DNA of 23,828 nucleotides from a virus. A program made the translations under genes and the position numbers. Below are positions 4,957-23,450 of this stretch, in pieces (within the stretch, counting starts at the first letter, position 1; each line of letters starts with the position of its first letter). The stretch is from IMG/VR virus record IMGVR_UViG_3300008262_000310, positions 14,525-38,352 of that record. The stretch is one strand, 5' to 3'. The notes beneath the pieces are model-generated. The model did not search any database and had not been told where the DNA came from. It was given only the letters and a program-made list of their open reading frames with translations.

Positions 4957-7194
4957 TTACACCCCAGACGCAATCTCTTGAGCTTTATCGGCGTCTTTAA
5001 AAGCCCGTTCTTGAGCCGCATCAGCCATACGAATCTGGCGTTTGGTGTCCGCTTCTTCCATCATAAGCCTCTGCTTAACTCTGCTTTCTTCTATCTTAGA
5101 AGCTAGAGCCGATTGCTGGTCAGAATTACCAGGCTCAGAAGCTACATTAGCCGACTGCTCATTTAATTTCTGAACATGCTTAGCGCCATTAGTGACGACT
5201 TCAGTTAATTGAGACAAAATCTTTCTATTTGCAGCTGCTTCTTCAGTTACTGTTGGGTCTGCAGATTGGGCTTCGATATGTAAAGTTGCGTGCTCTAGCA
5301 AGGCAACCAACCCCGGAATCACGGTGGCTATGTCGGAAGCGCCCTCATTCAAACCGTTAACTCCTTGAGACAGGGCAGCGATATGGCTCTTAGCATGTAC
5401 AGTGTGGTTATCGTTAGGGTAGGTAGGCAGCTGGGTCCCAGCCATCAATGTGTTATTCTCAAGATTAGCAAACTTCTCGTCCATCAAAGGTCGGCTTTCA
5501 GAAGTAGGTTTCTGTACGTACCTGTCGGAGTTAGCGTAACCGATCCTAGCCGCCACCCTATCCCTCAAAAGATTCTGTCTGCCAAACTCGTCAAACGCCG
5601 GGGCTATCTGGCTAAACTCATCAAAAGTTAACTGACGCATCTGCTCGCTTCCAGCGCCTATGGCTCTTACAGCGGTTACACGAGCCAGATCTACCTGATA
5701 TATCGCCTCCAAAGGCACCCCTCGCTCAAAACAGCGCTTTTTAAACTCTCTAACAGAGTCTCCTCCTGGCTCAGAAGGGTAGTAATCCCTACGGCATACA
5801 CGACGAACAACCTCTCTAAATAATCGCTCTAGAGGGTCGTAGAATAAAGAAAGCGCGGAAGTGCTAAGCCTAGCTCTGTCACTTTGTTGAGATTGTATTT
5901 CGTATTTAGTTTTTTGGCGTGTGTCAACTTCTGTAGCGGAAGCCTGGTATCCGCTTGTACGATTCGTAATCAACCTAGACATGTCTTGTAACACAGGAAG
6001 AACACTGGTAGACATGTTAGGGATAGACCGCTCTTGGATCTCAACCCCAGGAGACAATATGCTGTACGGTCCAAAATAAGACAACTGCAAATTCTGGAGA
6101 GCGTCTTCGTTGGCTGGTTGAAGTATGACGCTGCTGCTAAGAAGCGCTCCGTCGACCATCTGGCACCTTAGCCTATTACTGGTTTGTATTTCAGTAAATA
6201 TCTTAGCGCCTAAACCTCGTATACTGTGGTACTGGCCGTTAACCCCTACGCCATATGTAAATATTGTAAACGCCTGCTCCATACGAGAAAACTTCCCAAC
6301 TCTGCGATACAAAAAGTCTTCTTTATCAGTAGCGTCATCTCGAAGGATAATAGAATGAGTAACAGTCCCGTCGAACTCTACATTCCAAATATGCACAACT
6401 TTAATTTCAGACGATGTAGCCACGCCAACATATAGATCGTTGCTTTTCATCTCCCTAACAATAGCCTCCCAGTCAGTAGAGTGCCCGCCAGAAGCAGGGG
6501 AGTTGGAGACAGCGTCCTTGATAGCTTTCTTAACCGCACTAACGTTCCACCCTAACTCTAAAGCCTTCTGCTCGTCTTCTATAAAACGGTACAACTGCTG
6601 AGCCTGCATAACTCTAGAACAACACGCTACCTCTATCTCAGACTCACTAGCTAAAGTCTTACGGGGAATCAGAAAATCGCTCCACCCACCGACGCGCCAA
6701 CGCCAGTCCAAGTCAGACTCAAAATACGTAAAACCGACGCCGTGCGCTACAAAATGTGTAGCTAGCCTTAACCAGTTAGGTGTGTACGAGTTCCACCCAC
6801 GGAGCATACGAGTAATCTCTTCACTAATAGTGTCTTCGTAATCCAACCTCTCTTGAGGGTCGCCAAACTTGGTCTTGAAGTTTATCAAAACCTCGACACT
6901 GGAAAGCAAATCAACATACCCAGACAAAGCAGACTCCAGTAGTGCGTCAGCTTCCCCAAAGTTAACATTAGCTCTAGCGGCCTGTCCAGTAGCCCTCAGC
7001 TCAGCATCATCGTAAGGAGGGGCCCCGGCAAACATTTCATCTATAGCCGCCCTGTTTCTAGCAGACTGCTCGTCAGCTTTTAAAAGCCTGTGGTAGATCT
7101 CCCTCGCACTCTTTGCATCTTTGATGCGAGTTCTAGGGGGAGTCCCACTATCATCAAGCGTCTCCAAAAGAAGGTCGTTTGTAGAAGAAGACAT
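4957..7194 (-). CDS. Portal protein
   Basis: A 745-residue protein, the length range of podovirus portal (head-tail connector) proteins, which form the dodecameric ring through which DNA enters and leaves the capsid. The N-terminal 110 residues are helical (A-R-E-I-Y-H-R-L-L-K-A-D-E-Q-S). The middle has a basic, helix-rich region with S-G-Y-Q-A-S-A-T-E-V (near 410) typical of the portal stem and wing. The C-terminal 150 residues are Gln/Glu/Ala-rich and probably form the helical barrel. I chose the ATG at 7194; a TTG at 7203, directly after the previous stop, is possible and would add three residues. It is followed by the small gene and the scaffold. Confidence 0.85.
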   Translation of the reverse strand: MSSSTNDLLLETLDDSGTPPRTRIKDAKSAREIYHRLLKADEQSARNRAAIDEMFAGAPPYDDAELRATGQAARANVNFGEADALLESALSGYVDLLSSVEVLINFKTKFGDPQERLDYEDTISEEITRMLRGWNSYTPNWLRLATHFVAHGVGFTYFESDLDWRWRVGGWSDFLIPRKTLASESEIEVACCSRVMQAQQLYRFIEDEQKALELGWNVSAVKKAIKDAVSNSPASGGHSTDWEAIVREMKSNDLYVGVATSSEIKVVHIWNVEFDGTVTHSIILRDDATDKEDFLYRRVGKFSRMEQAFTIFTYGVGVNGQYHSIRGLGAKIFTEIQTSNRLRCQMVDGALLSSSVILQPANEDALQNLQLSYFGPYSILSPGVEIQERSIPNMSTSVLPVLQDMSRLITNRTSGYQASATEVDTRQKTKYEIQSQQSDRARLSTSALSLFYDPLERLFREVVRRVCRRDYYPSEPGGDSVREFKKRCFERGVPLEAIYQVDLARVTAVRAIGAGSEQMRQLTFDEFSQIAPAFDEFGRQNLLRDRVAARIGYANSDRYVQKPTSESRPLMDEKFANLENNTLMAGTQLPTYPNDNHTVHAKSHIAALSQGVNGLNEGASDIATVIPGLVALLEHATLHIEAQSADPTVTEEAAANRKILSQLTEVVTNGAKHVQKLNEQSANVASEPGNSDQQSALASKIEESRVKQRLMMEEADTKRQIRMADAAQERAFKDADKAQEIASGV

Positions 7195-7203
7195 AAACGC
7201 CAA

Positions 7204-7944
7204 TCACTCTACGGCGGCTTTTTCAGGTTGTTCTTCGGCTTTCACCGAACGTTTCACCGAAAGTTTCACCGAACGTTTCACCGAACTTTCCGTAGGCTCC
7301 AGAACAAATTCTTTTAAGGCTCCGTGGTACAATACAGAAGAAGGTTTAACATCGCCATCTACTTGAATTAAAGAAGTGTTGTGAGCCATAGGAACTATTT
7401 CGTTTTGGCAGAATACCTCATAATTGATGGGGAACATCGGGGAGTGTGCCGCCAAAGAAGAGTTAGGGAGGTAGTCTTGAGAGTATACTGCGGACCTGAC
7501 TAAGTGTTGCCCTTCCTTATACGTAGCTCCATCAGCAGATACTAGCTCAGTGTCCACAAGCGCCCCCAAGAAAGGCATTTTAGCTAAGTTATACTCGGAC
7601 TCTAAAGAGTCCAGCCAACCCGACTTCAACGGCGTAGCCTGAGCTCCAAACCAAAGCCAGGGGGCCGCGCTATTAGCAACATACTTCAAGTAATGCGCAG
7701 AGTTAAACCAACAAAAATTGATGTCTAGTGGGGGGATGGAAGGGCCGTCTTGGCTGAAAACATAAGCGGAGACTTTAGAAAAAAGATTCTGGACCTTGTC
7801 AAACACGACTTTAAGGTTAGCCTCGTCGGACGGCTTGGCTACAACTACAGCTTCGTGGTTTTGATACGGCCCAAATTTGATAAGGGCCTCCAAACCTTTT
7901 TCTGTGACAGCGTCTTCGCTGGATGCGGGAATTACAATGATCAT
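7204..7944 (-). CDS. Glycosyltransferase-like protein with degenerate metal motif
   Basis: A 246-residue protein. The N-terminus (M-I-I-V-I-P-A-S-S-E-D) and the segment A-P-W-L-W-F-G-A-Q-A-T-P-L-K-S-G-W-L-D (about 94-112) match the layout of GT-A-fold glycosyltransferase-like proteins found in phage structural operons. Those proteins carry an E-P-D or D-x-D metal site where this one has G-A-Q-A-T. The family call comes from memory of the pattern, so confidence is moderate. Loss of the acidic residues suggests no metal-dependent transfer. The last 40 residues are a charged tail with a four-residue repeat, S-V-K-R/L. It lies between terminase and portal, with a promoter-like sequence before it. 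An alternative is a virion protein that only retains the fold. Confidence 0.55.
   Translation of the reverse strand: MIIVIPASSEDAVTEKGLEALIKFGPYQNHEAVVVAKPSDEANLKVVFDKVQNLFSKVSAYVFSQDGPSIPPLDINFCWFNSAHYLKYVANSAAPWLWFGAQATPLKSGWLDSLESEYNLAKMPFLGALVDTELVSADGATYKEGQHLVRSAVYSQDYLPNSSLAAHSPMFPINYEVFCQNEIVPMAHNTSLIQVDGDVKPSSVLYHGALKEFVLEPTESSVKRSVKLSVKRSVKAEEQPEKAAVE
7241..7288 (-). repeat. 12-bp tandem repeat in the C-terminal tail of the glycosyltransferase-like gene
   Basis: Four consecutive 12-bp units of TTCACCGAACGT type (7241, 7253, 7265, 7277), differing at one or two bases. They encode S-V-K-R, S-V-K-L, S-V-K-R, S-V-K on the minus strand, a basic repeat next to an acidic end. The 12-bp period keeps frame under slippage. 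Confidence 0.9.
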
Positions 7945-7964: not shown

Positions 7965-7994
7965 ATTATTGAACTGCACTTCAGCAACTGTCAA
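7965..7994 (-). promoter_or_regulatory. Promoter for the glycosyltransferase-like/portal operon
   Basis: Minus strand TTGACA (7994-7989), an 18-base spacer, then AATAAT (7970-7965) continuing ATC, which resembles the recurrent TATAATATC element seen elsewhere in the window. A start seven bases downstream would leave a leader of about 13 bases before the ATG at 7944. Confidence 0.55.
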
Positions 7995-8001
7995 ATTTTT
8001 T

Positions 8002-9795
8002 TTATCTTAACAAGGTTTTAGGCAAGTTGGCGCGATTCAATCGGCTAAATAGGCCCCCTAAATTGCGAGCAGTTGGACTGTTTTTAGTTTCAGACTTTCT
8101 ATCCGCCCCAAACCCAAACTTTTCGCGACACAACGCCACTAACATTAACGCAGCGTCGGCCTCATCGGGGGATTTCCCAATCCTCATTTTCATATCTGGC
8201 TTAGGCTCAGCTACCAATCTCATGTTAGACCCTTTTTTAGTGGAATAAGTCCTAGCGCATAACTCTCTAGCGAGGGTAGCTGTAACTCCGCGTATCTGCC
8301 CCGTCCTCATCAGTTCTTTAGCGCCGAACCAGATCTCAGTGACTCTGTTAGCGTATCGCTCGTTTGAAGGTGTGGGGTCAGAAACACTAGCTGGGAGTTC
8401 GCTAGCTTGACCGCCGAAATCAATTCGAACCACCCTATTAGACCACTCTCTAGCCACAATGTCCCCAAAAGGCTTCCCGGCCCCGCTGGCGTCAAAACAA
8501 GCATTTTCAGGAGCCACACCATTACTGATGCAGCGGTCTCTAAAAGTTTGCACTATTTGAAAGGATCTAGGTACTGAAGTCTTGGTTACGTCCTCACGTA
8601 AAAACTCAACTCGGTCGAAACACAAAGTTTTCAGCCCGTCTCCATTCTCTCCGTACCACCCAAAATAAAGAGCCGTTCGATCGCCGCCATTTGTAAAAGC
8701 CGGGTCTAAAGCAGCAATCTTAACCGGAGGGGTCAGCCAGATCGCGGGTTGATCCGCTTTAAATTTTATAATGTCCGCTTCGGAATATATCCCATCAGCC
8801 GCACCAGTGGGGCTCCAGTAGCCGCGAATCATTCGCCAATACGCGTTAGAGTTTTCACCCAAAGATTCTCTTTGCTGCTCCAGAAAATCTGCAGTGATCA
8901 GCCACGGATACAGCGTCGAACCAGCAGAAATGTTAGGGCTCTTTTCGCCGTCCAACCTCAAACACTTCCCCCGGTCAGTCTCCCATTCCTCGCTCTCTGA
9001 GTTTATCGAGGCCCAGCCAGCTTTAGGTTTTGCGAAGACGCCAAAAGCGTCGTAGTAGCTTGCAGGGTTTCCGAGACCGACCATCTGAAACCAAGGATTC
9101 ACCGCCAAGTTGGAATACGCCGCTCCAACAACAGACTCGCCCAACTCAGGGAGCTCGTCCGCGATCAGCAAAACGCGAGGGGCCTTAAACCCGATCAATT
9201 TTCCGTAGGCTTCCTTGTCCTTACTTTTTTCGGCAGCGATCAAAGAAATTCCACTGCGATCTGAACCAGTCGAATCTTTCGTCCCCATATCAAAACGAAT
9301 CAATCCGACGGAGTCCACGAGCTTGCCCGGGGCTCTTCCTGGTATCGCCTGCCAATAATCTCGGATAGCTCCCCAAATGCGCTTCCGAGAATCTTTCAAA
9401 GATGTCGACGTCACGAGCACCATTGTTTTGCTTGGCAAGCATAAAAAATTTACGATTGCCCACACGGCCCCAAAATCAGATTTGCCCGTGCTGGCGGCCC
9501 CAGCTATCGCCAAAAAACTTTTTGGTTTTTCCATAGCCTCGCAAGCTTCTTCGAGCATTCGTTCCGCCCACGGGTGCCACACAAATTTTTTCCTTTTGTT
9601 GTTCGGCCCCCAAAGCATGTCCGAGATGGCTTTGAAATGCCCCGCTCTACCAAGACCGCCTGGGATCTCTGAAGGCCCTAACCGGAACGCCTTCAAATGC
9701 CGCATGAGTTGATTGTCAGTTTTCTTCCACCAAACACCCCACTGCAGTTCTACGTCTGAAGAGGGTGCGGGTGGGTTTACGGTTATAGAACTCAT
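8002..9795 (-). CDS. terL: Terminase large subunit (TerL)
   Basis: A 597-residue DNA-packaging motor: an N-terminal ATPase that drives DNA into the procapsid and a C-terminal RNase H-like nuclease that cuts concatemers. Visible motifs are Walker A G-A-A-S-T-G-K-S (99-106), Walker B V-L-L-I-A-D-E (208-214, catalytic Glu 214), nuclease acid Asp 364 in A-L-D-P-A-F, Asp 435 in A-C-F-D-A-S-G, and the last pair in S-P-D-E-A-D-A-A-L (544-547). I place the start at the ATG at 9795 (M-S-S-I-T-V) rather than a longer in-frame start at 9819, because promoter-like sequence lies directly in front of 9795 and would make the mRNA nearly leaderless. No small terminase gene lies next to it. Confidence 0.93.
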   Translation of the reverse strand: MSSITVNPPAPSSDVELQWGVWWKKTDNQLMRHLKAFRLGPSEIPGGLGRAGHFKAISDMLWGPNNKRKKFVWHPWAERMLEEACEAMEKPKSFLAIAGAASTGKSDFGAVWAIVNFLCLPSKTMVLVTSTSLKDSRKRIWGAIRDYWQAIPGRAPGKLVDSVGLIRFDMGTKDSTGSDRSGISLIAAEKSKDKEAYGKLIGFKAPRVLLIADELPELGESVVGAAYSNLAVNPWFQMVGLGNPASYYDAFGVFAKPKAGWASINSESEEWETDRGKCLRLDGEKSPNISAGSTLYPWLITADFLEQQRESLGENSNAYWRMIRGYWSPTGAADGIYSEADIIKFKADQPAIWLTPPVKIAALDPAFTNGGDRTALYFGWYGENGDGLKTLCFDRVEFLREDVTKTSVPRSFQIVQTFRDRCISNGVAPENACFDASGAGKPFGDIVAREWSNRVVRIDFGGQASELPASVSDPTPSNERYANRVTEIWFGAKELMRTGQIRGVTATLARELCARTYSTKKGSNMRLVAEPKPDMKMRIGKSPDEADAALMLVALCREKFGFGADRKSETKNSPTARNLGGLFSRLNRANLPKTLLR

Positions 9796-9920: not shown

Positions 9921-9967
9921 AGCCGACACTCGGATTCGAACCGAGGACCGACGGTTTACAAAACCGT
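9921..9967 (-). other. attP: attP core: 3' part of a tRNA-Thr(TGT) gene
   Basis: The minus strand shows the 3' half of a tRNA: anticodon stem ACGGT/ACCGT (9967-9963 with 9955-9951), 7-base loop TTTGTAA with anticodon TGT (9960-9958), a five-base variable loop, T-stem CTCGG/CCGAG with loop TTCGAAT (9945-9929), the 3' acceptor strand TGTCGGC (9928-9922) and discriminator T. No D-arm or matching GCCGACA 5' acceptor strand is present upstream, where the sequence is AT-rich. A tRNA 3' end next to a tyrosine integrase gene is the standard form of a phage attachment site: integration rebuilds the host tRNA. Phage genes on both sides mean attP, not attL or attR. Confidence 0.85.
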
Positions 9968-10223
9968 TTATACTGGGGTAATATCCTAGAAATACACCTA
10001 AGTTAAAAATATCAAAATCAAACATTTAAAATAAAAAGTGGTATATTATTGAATGTCACTAGGATGTTATAAAGTACCGTTTTTTCGCCAATTTTCTGGT
10101 ATTTTGCGTCATTAGTCCGTCTATACTTTCAACGAGTTACTAGGGGTTTTAATCGCGGTAGCGGTCAAAAAAACCGTTGAACATTTTTTGTCATGTGGTG
10201 TCAATACTAGCACAGAAAATTTT
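9968..10223. other. Gene-free region between attP core and integrase
   Basis: AT-rich and without a gene. It has several TACTAG/ACTAGG-type words (around 10056, 10135 and 10203) that could be integrase arm sites, a near copy of the promoter element lacking two bases (GGTAATATCC, from about 9977), and TTGAAC (10177-10182) ahead of the integrase. None of these is proven. Confidence 0.4.
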
Positions 10224-11396
10224 ATGCCAAAACAAAAATCAAACGGCGAATACCCGAAGCATCTGGTTTCTCGCTACGGGAAGGTTCACATTTATAAAAA
10301 CTCCAACCGGGGGGCTTGGGTAGTGTATGTGGTGGCCTGGTCAATAGGCAGAAAAAGGCATCGTCTCAGTTTCTCCGACGAGATGGCTGCCTTAAATCAC
10401 GCCGAACTCGTGCAGGAGCAGTTCAAAAAAGGAGAGCAGTTGGCCACCGCGATTTCATCCAGCAAGGCTCTCTACTACGAGACCTGTGAACAAAAGCTCA
10501 ACGGCGTGTCTCTACTAGACGCCGTAGATTACTACATGCGGATGCACGGTGAGACTAAATCGGGAGTTTCCCTCCAGAAAGTCAAAGACGAATTTATGGA
10601 GGGCGTGAAAAAACTTGGTAACCAGCCACGAGACATCTCCACGCTTAGGGGGCACCTAAACAAATTCGCCGACTGCATGAAGGTTCCGATGGAGTCAATA
10701 CGGGCCGTTGATATTGATAGGTATCTTCAGGGGCATGAGAGCTGGTCAAATCGAACGCGCATAAATCATCGAAGTTCGATCATGCGGCTTTTCAACTGGG
10801 CGATAGAAAAAGAACGGTTGCCATCCAACATGGCGAACCCCGTAGAAAAATCGTCCACATACAAATCGGAGACGACTGGATCCCCAGGAATTTTCACACC
10901 TTCCGAGCTACAAAAACTTCTCGACACTGTCGAAGAAGATTGGATGCCATACATCGCTATCGCCGCGTTTGCGGGGCCTCGATCTGCTGAGATTCCTCGA
11001 CTAGAGTGGGAGTCGGTGTTGTTCGACGAAAAAGTAATTGTGCTCGACGCCAGGCACACAAAAACAAAGCGCCGAAGAGTTGCGCAAATGCCGGACAACC
11101 TCGTTTTGTGGCTCAAAAGTTACAGCGGAAAAAAAGAGGGCCCCATATGCCCCTCAAAAAATCCGAACAAAATGACGAACAGGTTGTCTAAAGATGCAAA
11201 GGTACTATGGAAACACAACGGACTTCGGCACTCATATGTGTCCTACCAAATGGCAATCCTCCGAGACGCCGCAAAAGTAGCGGAGCAATGCGGAAACTCT
11301 CCCGAACAAGTTCAAGCGAACTACAAGGCCAACGCTCTTGAGAGCGAGGCTAAAAAGTGGTTTGCGATCAAACCAAAAAAGAAAGGTACAAAATAA
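10224..11396 (+). CDS. int: Tyrosine recombinase (phage integrase)
   Basis: About 390 residues. It catalyses attP x attB recombination by a Tyr-DNA intermediate. Numbered from an upstream ATG at 10188: Arg 265 in A-G-P-R-S-A-E-I (motif I), Lys 292/294 in the beta-hairpin T-K-T-K-R-R-R, N-G-L-R-H-S-Y with Arg 347, C-G-N-S-P with Asn 370, and the nucleophile Tyr 379 in Q-A-N-Y-K. The usual His of H-x-x-R is Asn 344 and the usual His of G-H-S is Asn 370. The N-terminal half holds a DNA-binding SAM-like domain. I prefer the start at 10224 (M-P-K-Q-K-S) because the extra 12 residues from 10188 look unlike coding sequence; the longer start cannot be excluded. attP lies directly upstream. Confidence 0.92.
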   Translation: MPKQKSNGEYPKHLVSRYGKVHIYKNSNRGAWVVYVVAWSIGRKRHRLSFSDEMAALNHAELVQEQFKKGEQLATAISSSKALYYETCEQKLNGVSLLDAVDYYMRMHGETKSGVSLQKVKDEFMEGVKKLGNQPRDISTLRGHLNKFADCMKVPMESIRAVDIDRYLQGHESWSNRTRINHRSSIMRLFNWAIEKERLPSNMANPVEKSSTYKSETTGSPGIFTPSELQKLLDTVEEDWMPYIAIAAFAGPRSAEIPRLEWESVLFDEKVIVLDARHTKTKRRRVAQMPDNLVLWLKSYSGKKEGPICPSKNPNKMTNRLSKDAKVLWKHNGLRHSYVSYQMAILRDAAKVAEQCGNSPEQVQANYKANALESEAKKWFAIKPKKKGTK

Positions 11397-19268: not shown

Positions 19269-21431
19269 ATGCCAACACAGACGACCTATCTCGCAATCAA
19301 GAACCTCAGGAGCAACGACGCCTTCGACATCGGAGGCAAGCCATGGGAAGCCAGTATCCCGCCGCGCCCAGGACTCCAGTCGGGGGCGACTAAAGAAGCT
19401 TATCGGGTTTGGTGCTCCGACCCAAACACCGACTGGGTCTTCTATACTTTTGCAGAGGGGCTCACCCCATCCCTAAGAGTTTCGGAAACAAATCCGGTCA
19501 AGTACCAACACGGCATTATTGCCGACTATGACTCGGTAGTTCCCATCGCCGACGCGAAGCAGATCCTCGCTAACAACTGCCCGGCTGGGCTGGAGCCCAC
19601 AGGAATCTCTCAAACATTCAGCGGGGGGATTCGTGTGGTGTGGGAGTTCGAAGAGCCGCTGATGTTGGACAACAAGGGTCTCTACGAGTCTTTCATGGCT
19701 TACGCAGCAAAAGAACTGCGTGTAAAGAAACTGCTGCCACATTTTGACGAGACCTCCTTAAAGTCAAACCAGGTGTTCGAGATCGGTAGCGACTGGGAGC
19801 AGATTCCAGGTTCCCTTCCGATCTCATGTAATGTGGTCCATCATTGGCTGGCCGAATCCGCGCTTAAAGCCAAGAAGGTATCGGATAACAATACTTCAAT
19901 CCCATACGATCGCATCGCAGCCGAGATCGAGAAACAGTTCCCAGGAAAGCTGCAGGGCGACATTAGAGAAGGTCTACGCGTGCCGCTGTTCTGGATCGAC
20001 GACGGGATTGACCGTGTCGGTGCAGTCATGGGAGAGCACGGGGTTATATGTTTCTCGGACCGCGCAGGTAAGTCTTTTGTGCCGTGGGTAGAGATACTGG
20101 GTAAAAAGTTTGTTTCGGAATACGAAGCCGAGCGCACCGGAGCTGCCGCAGCAGACTTCTGGTATGACGGACGCGCCTATTGGGTCAAAGACAACGACCT
20201 ATGGTGCCGACTCGTCAGCGAGGAGATGGGCCGTCGGTTGAAAGTCCTGTACAGGCTTTCCAGCAAGAACGGTAACAAGGACACCGCAAGCGAAGTAGAT
20301 AAGGCTATGGTCGCAATCCAACAGACCAAGCGGGTGCAGTGCGTAGCGCCGTTCGTCTACAATCCGGTCGAAATTCTAGACTTCAATGGAGCCAAGTACC
20401 TAAACACCAGCCAACGCAAAATGATGGAGCCCGCTGCAGAGGATGGGGATTTCCCCTGGCTCAAGAAGTTTTTGCTGGAGCCTGGTATCTGGGATAGCGC
20501 CGTGGATGAAAACGGAGTCGGCCAAAGAGACTACTTCTTAGCTTGGTTAAAAAGATTCTGGGAATCGGGCAGAGCGGGACGGCTGCTTTCGGGTCAAATG
20601 GTGTTCATCGCCGGAGGCGCGGGACAGGGTAAGACCTTTCTATCCTCGTTCATCATGGGCCAGATTTCAGGGGGACATAGCGATGCGAGCGGATACCTGC
20701 TAGGGGGAGGGGACTTCAATAAGGAGCTAGTCGAAGTCGGAGTGTGGAGCGTTGACGACGGTATGGCCACTATCGACGGGACTAGCCGAAAGACTTTCTC
20801 AGCTAACGTTAAAAAGGTCGTCGCTCAAACCGAGATCCTTTACCATCCAAAGTTCCAAGATGCTACGAAGCTTCCGTGGCAGGGTAGGGTAGTCGTCACC
20901 TGTAACACGGACGAAGAGTCTCTCTCGATCGTCCCGACCACGGACAATTCAATCACAGATAAACTCATGCTGTTTAAACTCGGAGAATGGTATCCAAGTT
21001 TCCCACCTAACCACGTCATCGAGGCACAGGTCAATGCAGAACTGCCGTTCTTTCTAAGGTGGCTCTCCCAGTGGACCCCGCCACCCTGCATCATGGCATC
21101 GTCATCACGAAGCCGCTATGGAGTGAAGTCCTTCCACCACCCAGAAATCCTGGCTCACAGCCAGAGTCTCGCAGCAGCCACCCACCTCCGAGAAGACATT
21201 GACACCCTGCGACACCTGAAGGACAGCATCCTGTTCATAGATGGGGCGAAGGTGTGGGAGGGCACCTCAGGAGACCTACTCCGAATCGGCAAGGACTTCT
21301 TTGCTACCAGGGCGAGTGCAGCGCAAATGGGCGTATGGTTGGCTCAAGTTCACAAAAGCAATGCAGCCCCGTGGCTGGGTCGCAGGGAAGGCAGGGCCCG
21401 GAAGACTCTCTGGATAATCTCCAAGCCGTAG
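19269..21431 (+). CDS. Primase/helicase (AEP-type primase fused to SF3-like helicase)
   Basis: 720 residues. The N-terminal part has an archaeo-eukaryotic primase-like signature: I-I-A-D-Y-D-S (Asp 86, Asp 88) and F-S-G-G-I-R-V-V-W-E-F about 40 residues later. The C-terminal part is a helicase ATPase: Walker A A-G-G-A-G-Q-G-K-T (448-456), Walker B V-W-S-V-D-D-G (492-498) and a sensor Asn in V-T-C-N-T-D-E (Asn 546), which fits superfamily 3/D5/VirE-like helicases. Such proteins open the origin, unwind and prime phage DNA. It has its own promoter element and codon use more biased than the polymerase. The gene-free stretch with iteron-like repeats right after it is a candidate target. Confidence 0.85.
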   Translation: MPTQTTYLAIKNLRSNDAFDIGGKPWEASIPPRPGLQSGATKEAYRVWCSDPNTDWVFYTFAEGLTPSLRVSETNPVKYQHGIIADYDSVVPIADAKQILANNCPAGLEPTGISQTFSGGIRVVWEFEEPLMLDNKGLYESFMAYAAKELRVKKLLPHFDETSLKSNQVFEIGSDWEQIPGSLPISCNVVHHWLAESALKAKKVSDNNTSIPYDRIAAEIEKQFPGKLQGDIREGLRVPLFWIDDGIDRVGAVMGEHGVICFSDRAGKSFVPWVEILGKKFVSEYEAERTGAAAADFWYDGRAYWVKDNDLWCRLVSEEMGRRLKVLYRLSSKNGNKDTASEVDKAMVAIQQTKRVQCVAPFVYNPVEILDFNGAKYLNTSQRKMMEPAAEDGDFPWLKKFLLEPGIWDSAVDENGVGQRDYFLAWLKRFWESGRAGRLLSGQMVFIAGGAGQGKTFLSSFIMGQISGGHSDASGYLLGGGDFNKELVEVGVWSVDDGMATIDGTSRKTFSANVKKVVAQTEILYHPKFQDATKLPWQGRVVVTCNTDEESLSIVPTTDNSITDKLMLFKLGEWYPSFPPNHVIEAQVNAELPFFLRWLSQWTPPPCIMASSSRSRYGVKSFHHPEILAHSQSLAAATHLREDIDTLRHLKDSILFIDGAKVWEGTSGDLLRIGKDFFATRASAAQMGVWLAQVHKSNAAPWLGRREGRARKTLWIISKP

Positions 21432-21590: not shown

Positions 21591-21882
21591 CATCACCCCA
21601 CCAAACCATCCCCCACCAATGTAAGGGCAACAGGGCGAAAGGGATGACCCCAAATGGTGATGGTGGTGATGGTTTTTGGCTATACCGTGCTTCCGGCGCT
21701 GTTTTCGCTGTTCCGTCCGTCAGGCGTGTGGGCTTTCTCTATTTCTCTATTATACCCCCCTTTTTATTATAAACCATCACCACCATCACCATTTTAAATA
21801 TAAGTATAAAAATTATCAACGACTTAAGTGTGGTGATGCCTGCTCAAAAATGCCTTCACCAACCCTCACCACATCACCACTT
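21591..21882. other. Candidate replication origin with iteron-like repeats
   Basis: The heptamer GGTGATG occurs at 21656, 21665 and 21832, and its complement CATCACC at 21591, 21775, 21784 and 21872: seven copies in under 300 bases. Four of them build a perfect 24-base inverted repeat (21652-21675 with 21771-21794) around a 95-base loop. Another imperfect pair is 21826-21838 with 21872-21882. An AT-rich run (21791-21820) lies between. Iterons, dyad and AT-rich unwinding element next to a primase/helicase gene are typical of replication origins. No coding potential is seen. It might instead be an RNA with a long stem. Confidence 0.55.
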
Positions 21883-22004
21883 GGTTTTGCCGCCCTCCCG
21901 AGCGGGAAGTTTTGTTCCATTTTTACGCGGATGCTTTGATTTGTTCCCGAGCGGGGTTGCAGGCTTTTTCGGAAAAAAATTTTTCAACCTATCTATGTAT
22001 AGTG

Positions 22005-22545
22005 CTCGATCCTGCGCCACGGCCCCACCCCCCTACCCGCGTGGTGTGTGCGCGCATGATGCACGCCGCGTAGCGCGGCCCGCGCACGCAGGCCCTCAGC
22101 TTCGCTGAGGGTTGGGGGGTTGGTTTGCCGTCGATCGGTTCGGTCGAATGGCATCGCTCTTTGCAGTGCAGGATGGAAGCCCTGCCGACAATCGAATCGG
22201 TCTGAATGCCTCGGCAAACTCGAAGCAAGACATCAGGATAGATCCCAAACGGAAGTAGATGATGTGGATGGAAGAACTGATGCACCTTGCAAGCGAAAAG
22301 TCGGAAAAGAGAATGGATAGGATCGAAGGAACAGAGAAACCCGAAAGGGTTAGTCCGCTCTGGAAATGATGGGACTGGTAGCGTCGAAAGACTTTATAGA
22401 TTTAATCTATATTAAGCCGTGACCATGCCGTAGCGATCAGGGTAAGTATGTTTCGCAGAACAGAAAGCCTCGCCGAAATCGGAAGATATGTGGAACATAT
22501 CAGCGAGCACCCCACGCCGGATTAAAGTATGGGAAATGTAAACTC
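22005..22545 (+). ncRNA. Large structured RNA candidate
   Basis: About 540 bases without a credible ORF but with many strong stems: GTGCGCG/CGCGCAC (22048-22054 with 22081-22087) around GCCGCG/CGCGGC; CCCTCAGC/GCTGAGGG (22093-22111); TCGATCG/CGGTCGA (22131-22147), extended by GCC/GGC; TGCCGA/TCGGCA (22183-22216); CAGAG/CTCTG (22332-22362), holding AACCC-GAAA-GGGTT; TATAGAT/ATCTATA (22395-22411); CTCGC/GCGAG (22469-22507), holding GATATG/CATATC. AGTCC (22352-22356) can pair with GGACT (22372-22376), a pseudoknot. The GNRA loop and purine-rich linkers favour the plus strand. TATAGT at 21998-22003 could be its -10 box. The size is in the range of phage-borne ROOL or GOLLD RNAs, but I cannot assign a family. 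Confidence 0.55.
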
Positions 22546-22552
22546 ATCACTT

Positions 22553-22667
22553 GAGTTGTGCAGTAAGAAGTTTTCTGAAGTGTATTTACGGCAGTTTGCC
22601 TCAATATCAATACACCCTGCACAACTCCTGTCTGGAGTTCTCCTATGCACCGCTCTCCGTTGGAGAG
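22553..22667 (+). promoter_or_regulatory. Structured leader with two exclusive folds before the 22714 gene
   Basis: An 11-bp stem GAGTTGTGCAG (22553-22563) / CTGCACAACTC (22617-22627) encloses GTGTATT/AATACAC (22580-22586 with 22609-22615), which in turn encloses GGCA/TGCC. AACTCC (22623-22628) can instead pair with GGAGTT (22634-22639); the two folds share bases and cannot coexist. A further hairpin CTCTCC-GTT-GGAGAG (22653-22667) follows. Such a layout suits an attenuator or riboswitch-like control, or the 3' domain of the large RNA upstream. Confidence 0.5.
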
Positions 22668-22713
22668 TTGGAGCCAAGTCAAGTAGGAGGATTCCATTAT
22701 CAGGAGTAAAGTT

Positions 22714-23133
22714 ATGATCACTAAAGAACTAGCTAATGTCGGCCCCATCACTAATCGTCTTTCTGCTAAAGGCAAAGACCTCGGCTCAAGGATTGCATAC
22801 AATGGCAATCAAACCGCAAGTGAAATCCGTGCTTCCCTTCGGGAATCTGGGTTCAAGGGCAAAGAGTTGACCTATAAGGTCAATGAAATCCTCTCCGGTG
22901 AAGCTGATGTTCGCTGGGTTAAGCACGAGCAGATTGTGTCTATTGCTAGAAGCAATGGGTTCGTTCCAGATTACACCGACGCAAGTGCCAAAGGCACTTC
23001 TATGACGACTCGTTATGTCCGCCCTGAACAGCAATTCATTGCTGCGTCGGATGTCGCCGAAAAGAATGCCGTGATTGCCGCACTCCAAGCGGAGCTTGCT
23101 GAACTCAAGGCACTTGTGGCCCCACAATCCTAA
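22714..23133 (+). CDS. Hypothetical protein with Shine-Dalgarno start
   Basis: 139 residues starting M-I-T-K-E-L-A-N-V-G. AGGAG (22702-22706) lies seven bases before the ATG, a proper Shine-Dalgarno and the clearest in the window. The middle is basic and helical (A-S-E-I-R-A-S-L-R-E-S-G-F-K-G-K-E-L), possibly nucleic-acid binding. The last 25 residues (V-I-A-A-L-Q-A-E-L-A-E-L-K-A-L) form a short leucine-zipper-like coiled coil. No family recognised. It is downstream of the structured leader and probably controlled by it. Confidence 0.7.
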   Translation: MITKELANVGPITNRLSAKGKDLGSRIAYNGNQTASEIRASLRESGFKGKELTYKVNEILSGEADVRWVKHEQIVSIARSNGFVPDYTDASAKGTSMTTRYVRPEQQFIAASDVAEKNAVIAALQAELAELKALVAPQS

Positions 23134-23154
23134 CGGATTTCGTCAGACACCTAG

Positions 23155-23176
23155 CCTCTCCCCTTCGGGGGAGGGG
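23155..23176 (+). terminator. UUCG-loop hairpin between two small genes
   Basis: Nine-bp stem (CCTCTCCCC with GGGGAGGGG, one G-T pair) capped by TTCG, a very stable tetraloop. The following T-tract is poor, so termination may be partial. It ends ten bases before the next ATG. Confidence 0.6.
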
Positions 23177-23186
23177 TTGTAGTCTT

Positions 23187-23450
23187 ATGAAAACCTATAT
23201 GCCCAGCGGATCTGTCCGCTCTAATTACCCTCAGATTGAAGAGATATGCAGGCTCTATCGCAGTGAACGAGCCGAATACATCCCAAAGTCCAAGCTGCCT
23301 GACCCAAGCGAGGTGCGTCTCCGCATGGAGATCGCCTTGTTCAAAGCTGATCTCTCACGAGCTGGCTGGCTCCGCGAACAAGCGGTAGCTAAAGCTGTGG
23401 CCAGAATCGCTGAGATAGAGTCCACTTGGCCTCAGTTGACGGGTTGCTAA
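23187..23450 (+). CDS. Small hypothetical protein
   Basis: 87 residues starting M-K-T-Y-M-P-S-G-S-V-R-S-N-Y. It is basic and mostly helical (A-V-A-K-A-V-A-R-I-A-E-I-E). I do not recognise a family. The gene is separated from the one before it by the UUCG hairpin, and its stop codon overlaps the stop of the convergent minus-strand gene within a small hairpin. A second ATG at codon 5 is possible. Confidence 0.6.
   Translation: MKTYMPSGSVRSNYPQIEEICRLYRSERAEYIPKSKLPDPSEVRLRMEIALFKADLSRAGWLREQAVAKAVARIAEIESTWPQLTGC

Follow-up and report, generated by a model that had tools for sequence, protein, structure and literature searches.

A candidate large structured RNA element with its own start block, located before a small basic-protein gene in related virus records

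A structured element to which Rfam has no counterpart recurs in ten distinct versions, always in one gene context, and one of these versions lies in the window analysed here, a stretch of 23,828 bases out of a 38,352-base IMG/VR virus record. The full unit of the window extends over approximately 700 bases, from an A/T block at 21978 to an ATG at 22714, and its gene context and start block place it among the members of this covarying element. An undescribed large structured RNA had been proposed at this place in an initial annotation. This proposal holds in so far as the element has ten versions, shares one gene context and covaries without being known to Rfam, but the relatives are unalignable to the window past approximately 110 nt, these first nucleotides being the limit to which the window's RNA can be aligned with its covarying relatives. 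The same annotation had named beforehand three outcomes that would speak against an RNA (no covariation, a conserved frame, or a folding energy at the level of shuffled sequence); what was found favours an RNA, the covariation being observed in the relatives only.

The interval first annotated, 22005–22545, is situated between a DUF5906-containing gene, which we infer to be a helicase/primase (hereafter the helicase), and a 139-aa ORF (table 1). This ORF is followed by an 87-aa ORF, then by a convergent ORF that we take from its position to be terminase-small-like, and for which no PHROG match was found. Upstream, the stretch 21652–21880, which includes the origin-like region, is 71% identical to positions 7661–7894 of a related record, L004 (L numbers designate such records throughout). 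G-rich/C-rich inverted repeats occur upstream of the element in all ten distinct elements, those of L088, L089, L090 and L092 having been seen via sub-cut-off Rfam matches with such arms; the inter-arm distance is about 85–96 nt in several relatives, like that of the window, and the repeats of four relatives match a microRNA family below the cut-off.

Table 1. Positions of the element's parts and of neighbouring features (window coordinates unless a related record is named; p, pairing probability).
Feature	Position	Strand	Remarks
DUF5906-containing gene	19269–21431	+	upstream of the RNA element; neighbour kept in relatives
Origin-like region	21652–21794	.	24-bp perfect inverted repeat 21652–21675 / 21771–21794, 95 nt between arms
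Long G-rich/C-rich inverted repeats before the element, relatives	L011 8502–8636; L088 3027–3171; L089 6519–6660; L090 3012–3150; L092 7125–7262; L094 4027–4159; L095 3082–3212; L097 3196–3347		
Promoter-like block	21964–22003	+	TTTTTCGGAAAAAAATTTTTC ... TATAGT (21998–22003); common to window and L004
5' domain	22024–22123	+	C-rich/G-rich closing helix 22024–22038 with 22109–22123, 87% complementary
ACCCGCGTGGTG	22035–22046	+	31 nt 3' of the TATAGT box
Second domain	22124–22218	+	TTTGCCG/CGGCAAA (22124–22130:22212–22218), p 0.35
Second domain, inner helix	22133–22143:22192–22202	+	GATCGGTTCGG/TCGAATCGGTC, p 0.63
GNRA hairpin AACCC-GAAA-GGGTT	22338–22351	+	p 0.90
Hairpin adjoining GNRA stem	22351–22356:22372–22377	+	p 0.80
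Paired hairpins	22485–22537	+	GATATGT/ACATATC (22485–22501), p 0.52; CCCACGCCGGATTAAAGTATGGG (22511–22533), p 0.97
3' competing helices (predicted)	22541–22707	+	22541–22546:22552–22557 (arms 1:2); 22553–22563:22617–22627 (2:3, 11 bp); 22624–22630:22701–22707 (3:4, covers the Shine–Dalgarno); 22633–22646:22683–22696 (14 bp)
Shine–Dalgarno AGGAG	22702–22706	+	7 nt before ATG; paired with p ~1 in the fold of 22011–22760
Small basic-protein gene, 139 aa, pI 8.9	22714–23133	+	directly 3' of the RNA; variability near that of the RNA
Two small ORFs compared	22714–23450 (window); 8955–9687 (L004)		divergence near that of the RNA

Other features of the window were noted in passing. A very stable hairpin, CCTCTCCCC-TTCG-GGGGAGGGG, stands between the two small ORFs (23155–23176), and in L011, the one relative compared with the window in this respect, GCACATCC-TTCG-GGGTGTGC occupies the equivalent place, near 10275–10294. 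A weak and short tRNA-like match on the minus strand (9921–9977; 29.4 bits for a cut-off of 29) just precedes a phage-integrase gene (10188–11396, +) and is perhaps a tRNA-derived attachment site, so that the phage may be temperate. Finally, a long run of G-x-Q collagen-like repeats (1–1164, -) belongs to a predicted protein that leaves the window end, perhaps a tail or fibre protein.

Relatives were sought through the helicase and through the start block. The helicase protein search retrieved two records identical to the window (L002, L003), one with 85% amino acid identity (L004), one whose contig ends (L005) and two distant ones (L006, L007), while 523 relatives matched a five-sequence helicase alignment, the analysis covering the best 80 of them. 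The window, L004 and L011 have in common a block composed of an A/T tract, a TATA box and ACCCGCGTGGTG, from which the search pattern AATTTTTN{6,30}TATAN{22,48}ACCCGYGTGGTG was built; as it derives from three elements, letters in common are partly so by construction. In IMG/VR, this pattern was found in 13 stretches of 69–73 nt total each, corresponding to 10 distinct elements after copies identical over 640 nt and second stretches of one contig had been set aside. These elements form three groups, namely C (the window and L004), A (L011, L088 and L090) and B (L089, L092, L094, L095 and L097), and in the relatives the order is helicase/primase, G-rich inverted repeats, A/T tract and TATA box, ACCCGCGTGGTG, element and small basic-protein gene. 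No new element came from the 11 stretches matching a relaxed start pattern, and no further RNA carrier from searches with the small-ORF alignment and the A/B helicase alignment; nucleotide searches of phage records with the window, L094 and L011 returned nothing or short chance matches, and a helicase tblastn against phage records gave nothing at E ≤ 1e-5. Three bacterial-genome matches to the start pattern (L098–L100), with differing sequences and looser spacing, were taken as chance.

The layout of A/T tract and TATA box is alike in all 10 distinct elements, the search pattern having required it. ACCCGCGTGGTG is present as a single copy in 10 of the 11 records searched, each time at the element locus, the eleventh record being L006; the A/T block AATTTTTTCTNNGAGGG, with at most one mismatch, has nine matches in 7 of the 11 records, seven at the locus and two elsewhere. 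The region of ACCCGCGTGGTG could form a CCCACC-CGCGT-GGTGGG hairpin in several relatives, reduced to ACC/GGT in the window. From its letters, the A/T and TATA block may function as a promoter; compared with the sigma-70 consensus, it gave no match.

The distance from the helicase to the element varies from approximately 0.5 kb (window) and approximately 1 kb (L004, L094, L095, L097) to 1.7–2.3 kb (L090, L011, L088) and approximately 3.0 and 3.7 kb (L089, L092), and small ORFs can therefore intervene. At the protein level, the helicases of L011 and L094 are 62% identical, that of L004 is 38–39% identical to both, and those of the window and L011 share 38%. Among the 13 contigs with an A/B-type helicase, three (L109, L114, L116) stop short of the element, and the remaining 10 all possess it. 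A crude ORF rule was applied to 40 helicase loci: besides the window, L004 and L011, 26 of 37 lack a non-coding gap of at least 300 nt in the flank past the helicase, and gaps near the helicase are seen in L006, L012–L014, L058 and L061. Two stretches of L006 were inspected by eye. The first (7128–7654) has a C-rich part (CCACCCCCTCCCGTGGTGG) that looks related, but the leader before the first small ORF is short; the second (7993–8473) is a separate, non-coding-looking stretch with the competing arms CTGCGCATGG, CATGCG and CCATGCGCAG, before the second small ORF. This more distant phage is possibly a variant in which the RNA has moved.

The proximity of a helicase/primase-type gene (0.5 to 3.7 kb upstream) and of large G-rich inverted repeats, which the element follows in all ten cases, together with the A/T-rich block and a fast divergence, would suit an RNA of replication control, i.e. 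a primer or counter-transcript at a phage origin whose structure would control priming, by analogy with RNA II of ColE1. We nevertheless consider such a role quite improbable, as the minimum of the cumulative GC skew lies near 12 kb of the window and not at the element (a calculation covering part of the record only), no primer-transition feature was identified, and the 3' helices are located at a start codon.

The interval had initially been described as devoid of ORFs. In fact, six mechanical ORFs of at least 60 aa overlap it (21830–22108, 22120–22320 and 22529–22717 on the plus strand; 21989–22285, 21993–22217 and 22500–22808 on the minus strand), and what remains of the description is the lack of a conserved frame. 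Between the TATA box and the following ATG, the 10 elements measure 644–873 nt without such a frame, and a coding region was rejected since pairwise gaps are divisible by 3 in only 6 of 41 cases in group A and 39 of 161 in group B.

Folding statistics depend on the interval considered. Within 22005–22545, the many stems, the GNRA hairpin and the TATAGT box initially pointed out are real, but the interval folds only modestly beyond shuffled sequences (z -1.58, 5 of 100 shuffles equally good; reverse complement, z -2.76, 0 of 100). The end set at 22545 is too early: the full unit extends to 22713, somewhat beyond the continuation to about 22690 that had been half suspected, and the plus strand between the TATA box and the following ATG reaches z -4.2, with none of 40 shuffles equally good (minus strand, -4.9). 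All 10 distinct elements fold better than their shuffles on the plus strand (z -2.3 to -4.5, 0 or 1 of 40 equally good). Minus-strand values range from -0.7 to -4.9, about equal to the plus strand in groups A and C and below it in group B (-0.7 to -2.5). Consequently, the assignment of the strand rests on the start block, the gene direction and group B.

Covariation was evaluated in groups A and B. For the three sequences of group A, RNAalifold gave 172 pairs, with 94.3% of cells paired, and 34 of these pairs are changed on both sides, compared with 13.6 +/- 2.9 after shuffling of the 3' letters (a count this high in 0 of 500) and 1–3 with slid partners. For the five sequences of group B, 35 of 146 pairs (88.6% paired) are changed on both sides, compared with 20.3 +/- 2.9 in shuffles (0 of 500 as high) and 7–11 with slid partners; one of the five measures, that of further pair types, was not above control in this group (107 of 500). 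These structures were derived from the very alignments on which they were tested and are thereby favoured, kinship inflates the letter shuffles, and certain RNAalifold pairs include the A/T block, which is unlikely to be transcribed. Against column-shuffled alignments, z reached -9.6 (A) and -7.5 (B) on the plus strand and -10.8 and -6.4 on the minus strand, values flattered by a shuffle that does not keep dinucleotide order. The clearest covariation is found in neighbouring hairpins of group A, where GTGATCGCC/GGCGAATCAC corresponds to ACTCATGCC/GGCATGGGT, and TCCCAC/GTGGGA to TTCCAGA/TCTGGAA. A large module insertion, of more than 200 columns, distinguishes L088 from L011 and L090. On the minus strand of L097, the module TCTTCGCG.GCAT.ATGCGCAGGAAAGAC is present twice, approximately 83–128 and 217–284 nt from the AATTTTT start, as against once in the other group B elements; judging from these letters, it is a domain duplication.

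Two readings that dispense with an RNA can be confronted with these data. In the first, the element would be structured DNA, that is, single-stranded or cruciform hairpins or protein-binding sites, as the good folding of both strands in groups A and C and the position of ACCCGCGTGGTG inside a near-palindrome in several relatives could indicate. G-U cells exceed A-C cells in the consensus structures (57 versus 12 and 97 versus 29), and they do so as well when the other strand is folded (54 versus 19 and 111 versus 25), so that these counts leave RNA and DNA undecided. The better folding of group B on the plus strand and a covariation that keeps helices rather than sequence nevertheless make structured DNA very improbable. 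In the second, the elements would have no common function and would be spacer DNA with chance folds; such spacer would explain why the identity of the window and L004 in the RNA body is no higher than that of shuffled sequences, but it is already contradicted for groups A and B, and the covariation, the fold statistics, the gene context and the start block leave it hardly any probability.

The window's own helices (table 1) have partial counterparts in the relatives. The core of the 5' domain closing helix (22027–22033:22114–22120) has an ensemble probability of 0.92, and in L004 the domain is closed by CCCCA (8239–8243) with TGGGG (8312–8316), p 0.98; by eye, the second domain of the window corresponds to TTTGTCG with CGACAA at the equivalent place in L004. 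A pseudoknot initially suspected between 22352–22356 and 22372–22376 turned out to be the ordinary hairpin that adjoins the GNRA stem. The paired hairpins at 22485–22537 resemble a motif of groups A and B, GGGGCCAAGTGTCCCC (or GGAGCAAGATGTCTCC) followed by TCCCACGCCGGAAAGTGGGA, the likeness of the second hairpin being judged by eye; compared with group A, the likeness of this stretch is not significant by sequence alone.

Sequence similarity between the window and L004 collapses in the RNA body. Nucleotide identity amounts to 76.7% for the helicase gene, 74.1% for the start block and first hairpin, and 74.3% for the terminase-like gene, versus 42.3% for the RNA body in global alignment, which is inside the shuffled range (40.0–43.3). 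In local alignments past the first 75 nt, the score of the window is reached by 1 of 200 shuffles against L004 and 4 of 200 against L094, and it is not above shuffles against L011, L088, L090, L089 and L092 (33 to 146 of 200).

Structural comparison was performed with a purpose-written aligner rather than a published tool. The score of the window with L004 was reached by 3 of 100 shuffles; L004 with L094 gave z 5.7 (0 of 70), L094 with L089 z 3.1 (0 of 70), the window with L097 z 2.6 (0 of 70) and L011 with L094 z 1.6 (5 of 70), these shuffle controls covering five pairs only, among which window–L097 and L004–L094 had been picked as the top cross-group scores of the window and of L004. The aligner paired the hairpin at 22485–22501 with GGAGCA/TGTCTCC of L097, and matched the terminal helix near the ATG between the window (GGAGTTCTCCTA/TAGGAGGATTCC) and L097 (TGCTGTTGGTTC/GAATCAATAACA) as well as between L004 and L094. 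Cross-group scores were higher on the plus strand than on the reverse complement in 16 of 16 comparisons, a result confounded by base composition, and the banded aligner fails on L011–L088 owing to the large insertion. A covariance model of the group A core hit the expected motif in L094, L095 and L097 with only 10.9 bits (E 0.46), at ranks 2 to 4, the top rank in that search being a match elsewhere; it did not find the elements of the window and L004, and in a second set it gave weight only to its own three members. Taken together, comparative support for the window's own structure is weak. Gene context and start block make it likely that the RNA is homologous as a whole across groups; structure lends this moderate support, and sequence does not prove it.

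The gene that follows the element varies along with it. In the comparison of the window with L004, the downstream ORF has 46.3% nucleotide identity (shuffled 37.6–44.3) and the second small ORF 47.3% (shuffled 39.3–49.4). The five downstream small proteins examined are all basic (pI 8.9–10.3). In pairwise comparisons, the number of shuffles out of 300 that reach the score is 0 for L094–L092, 1 for L092–L011, 4 for window–L004, 9 for L011–L004 and 18 for L094–L011, and it is higher for the other five pairs, including the window's other three; profile comparison of the group A and group B proteins yielded a probability of 1%. For the 139-aa protein of the window, neither Pfam (E ≤ 0.001) nor PHROG (E ≤ 0.1) gave a match; the L011 and L004 proteins matched PHROGs only weakly (best E 0.0039, function unknown), and the group B protein alignment found nothing in the PDB at E ≤ 1. 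The small proteins of the window and L094 were modelled by AlphaFold with low confidence (the two pLDDT values being 62.4 and 55.1); both models combine helices and a beta hairpin with a helix at the C terminus, a predicted fold that would suit nucleic-acid binding, which is only a hint.

As the start codon of this small gene marks the end of the element and its Shine–Dalgarno (SD) sequence is predicted to be sequestered, we tentatively read it, with a confidence a little below even, as the leader RNA, structured and approximately 700 nt long, of a phage regulatory module that would control translation of the small gene. Transcription would start just after the TATA box, and the body of the RNA would fold into domains that receive a signal, be it a protein, perhaps the downstream product, or the state of phage replication. 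This signal, or a ribosome, would then shift the balance of the 3' competing helices, in which the SD is either locked by 22624–22630 or free, 22617–22627 pairing in the latter case with 22553–22563. The predicted 11-bp helix formed by these two arms shares bases with two others, namely the SD-locking helix (in its 5' strand) and the hairpin 22541–22546:22552–22557 (in its 3' strand). Locally, the optimum fold is at -67.9 kcal/mol; holding the SD unpaired costs 5.9 kcal/mol (-62.0) and gives a fold that contains the 11-bp helix, whereas forcing this helix alone (-64.1, a cost of 3.8) does not release the SD, which then pairs with 22628–22630 and 22542–22545. On this prediction, a simple two-state switch was set aside for the window, and a second input, ribosome or bound factor, would therefore be needed.

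The competing arms are unevenly predicted among the elements. Near the ATG, none of 200 shuffles reaches their score in L004, L011, L088 and L090, against 18 of 200 in the window and 4, 28, 30, 41 and 113 of 200 in group B; the prediction is thus strong for four elements out of ten, of which three are closely related, and weak for the window. The change from CACCTAG to CACCCAG in L090 affects the three copies of the arm jointly. By eye, a clear SD precedes the ORF in the window and not in L011, L090 and L094. Moreover, much of the covariation is located in the body, far from the ATG, where a simple leader does not need it.

An alternative is a free-standing large ornate RNA of the GOLLD/ROOL kind, whose body would be the product, processed or terminated near 22540–22713, the downstream gene being a mere neighbour with its own control. 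The size of the elements, their many helices and module insertions of more than 200 columns, the strong covariation in the body, the phage location and a dedicated start block all agree with this picture, which we still hold to be rather unlikely. Indeed, no terminator-like match was found near the 3' end of the RNA (one exists inside it, at 22093–22118), the aligner equates the terminal helix close to the ATG in two cross-group pairs (window–L097 and L004–L094), and no tRNA island accompanies the element: ARAGORN detected no tRNA in the window, whose weak Rfam tRNA match is 12 kb away, and the ten related loci contain a single real one, in L092, outside the element and some 2 kb downstream of it. 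Of the separate transcript initially suggested, the conserved start block is retained, and the free-standing picture is not favoured by an element that ends at a start codon with its SD predicted to be sequestered, an arrangement that speaks no less for a leader.

If the leader reading is followed, the joint divergence of RNA body and small gene, not shared by more distant neighbours, is what would be expected of a cognate RNA–protein pair or of an exchangeable specificity module. More speculatively, and in our opinion improbably though by no means negligibly so, the elements could represent a new class of large phage RNA in which start motif, context and 3' helix are kept while the body changes more quickly than the conserved genes flanking it, in step with the small protein, as an RNA–protein specificity pair under diversifying pressure; such a pair might serve, for example, in immunity between related phages or in escape from a host sensor. 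Only a few large structured RNAs are known from phages, and the present element brings a fixed gene context and a start motif by which members can be found, while its 3' model is concrete enough for a simple reporter. A conserved context without detectable identity in the body, in spite of helicases as close as those of the window and L004, would also explain how covariance-model surveys could overlook such RNAs.

With regard to known families, the Rfam scan (4227 models, on the window stretch and ten related loci at E ≤ 5) bore out the initial annotation, with no gathering-level match in 22005–22545. Only two matches overlap an element, both far below the cut-off: sR2 in the window (14.4 bits), which is a chance match, and mir-3613 in L004 (22 bits, minus strand, 8872–8939); others below the cut-off fall on the upstream inverted repeats (best E 0.0056). 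Two pieces of group B, GCAGGAAAGACGAGGGCTTGG and CCGGAGCAAG, recall conserved stretches of RNase P when judged by eye, and this candidate was rejected, RF00010 matching 0 of 11 records at E ≤ 10 and 11 of 14 control genomes. In the scan at E ≤ 5, which covered the window stretch and the ten related loci, neither GOLLD nor ROOL (RF03087) was matched, and membership of these families was rejected accordingly; the per-record ROOL search matched 0 of 11 records, control genomes likewise giving no match. None of the known families tested includes the element. No description of it was found in the open-access literature, which is weak evidence of novelty, most subscription papers and preprints being outside that scope.

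In riboswitch-type or autogenous leader RNAs with translational control, a helix sequesters the SD of the next gene, and the element would resemble them in its predicted SD-sequestering helix and in a predicted competing fold in which the SD is free. Unlike riboswitch-type leaders, it is far longer, has no Rfam-recognized aptamer, is nearly unconstrained in the sequence of its body, and would not reach the ON state via one alternative helix alone. Like ROOL, it would be a large structured phage or prophage RNA of unknown function, and of similar length (659 nt for ROOL env-120; PMC12286853). ROOL forms a homo-oligomeric nanocage. It is often near tRNA islands (PMC12286853), whereas the element has neither a Rfam match nor such an island, and ends at a start codon with, in the window, a predicted SD-locking helix. 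With GOLLD, it shares the character of a large phage RNA with a less conserved part and module insertions, but the part best conserved by sequence is the first approximately 110 nt of the element, as opposed to the 3' region of GOLLD (PMC12286853).
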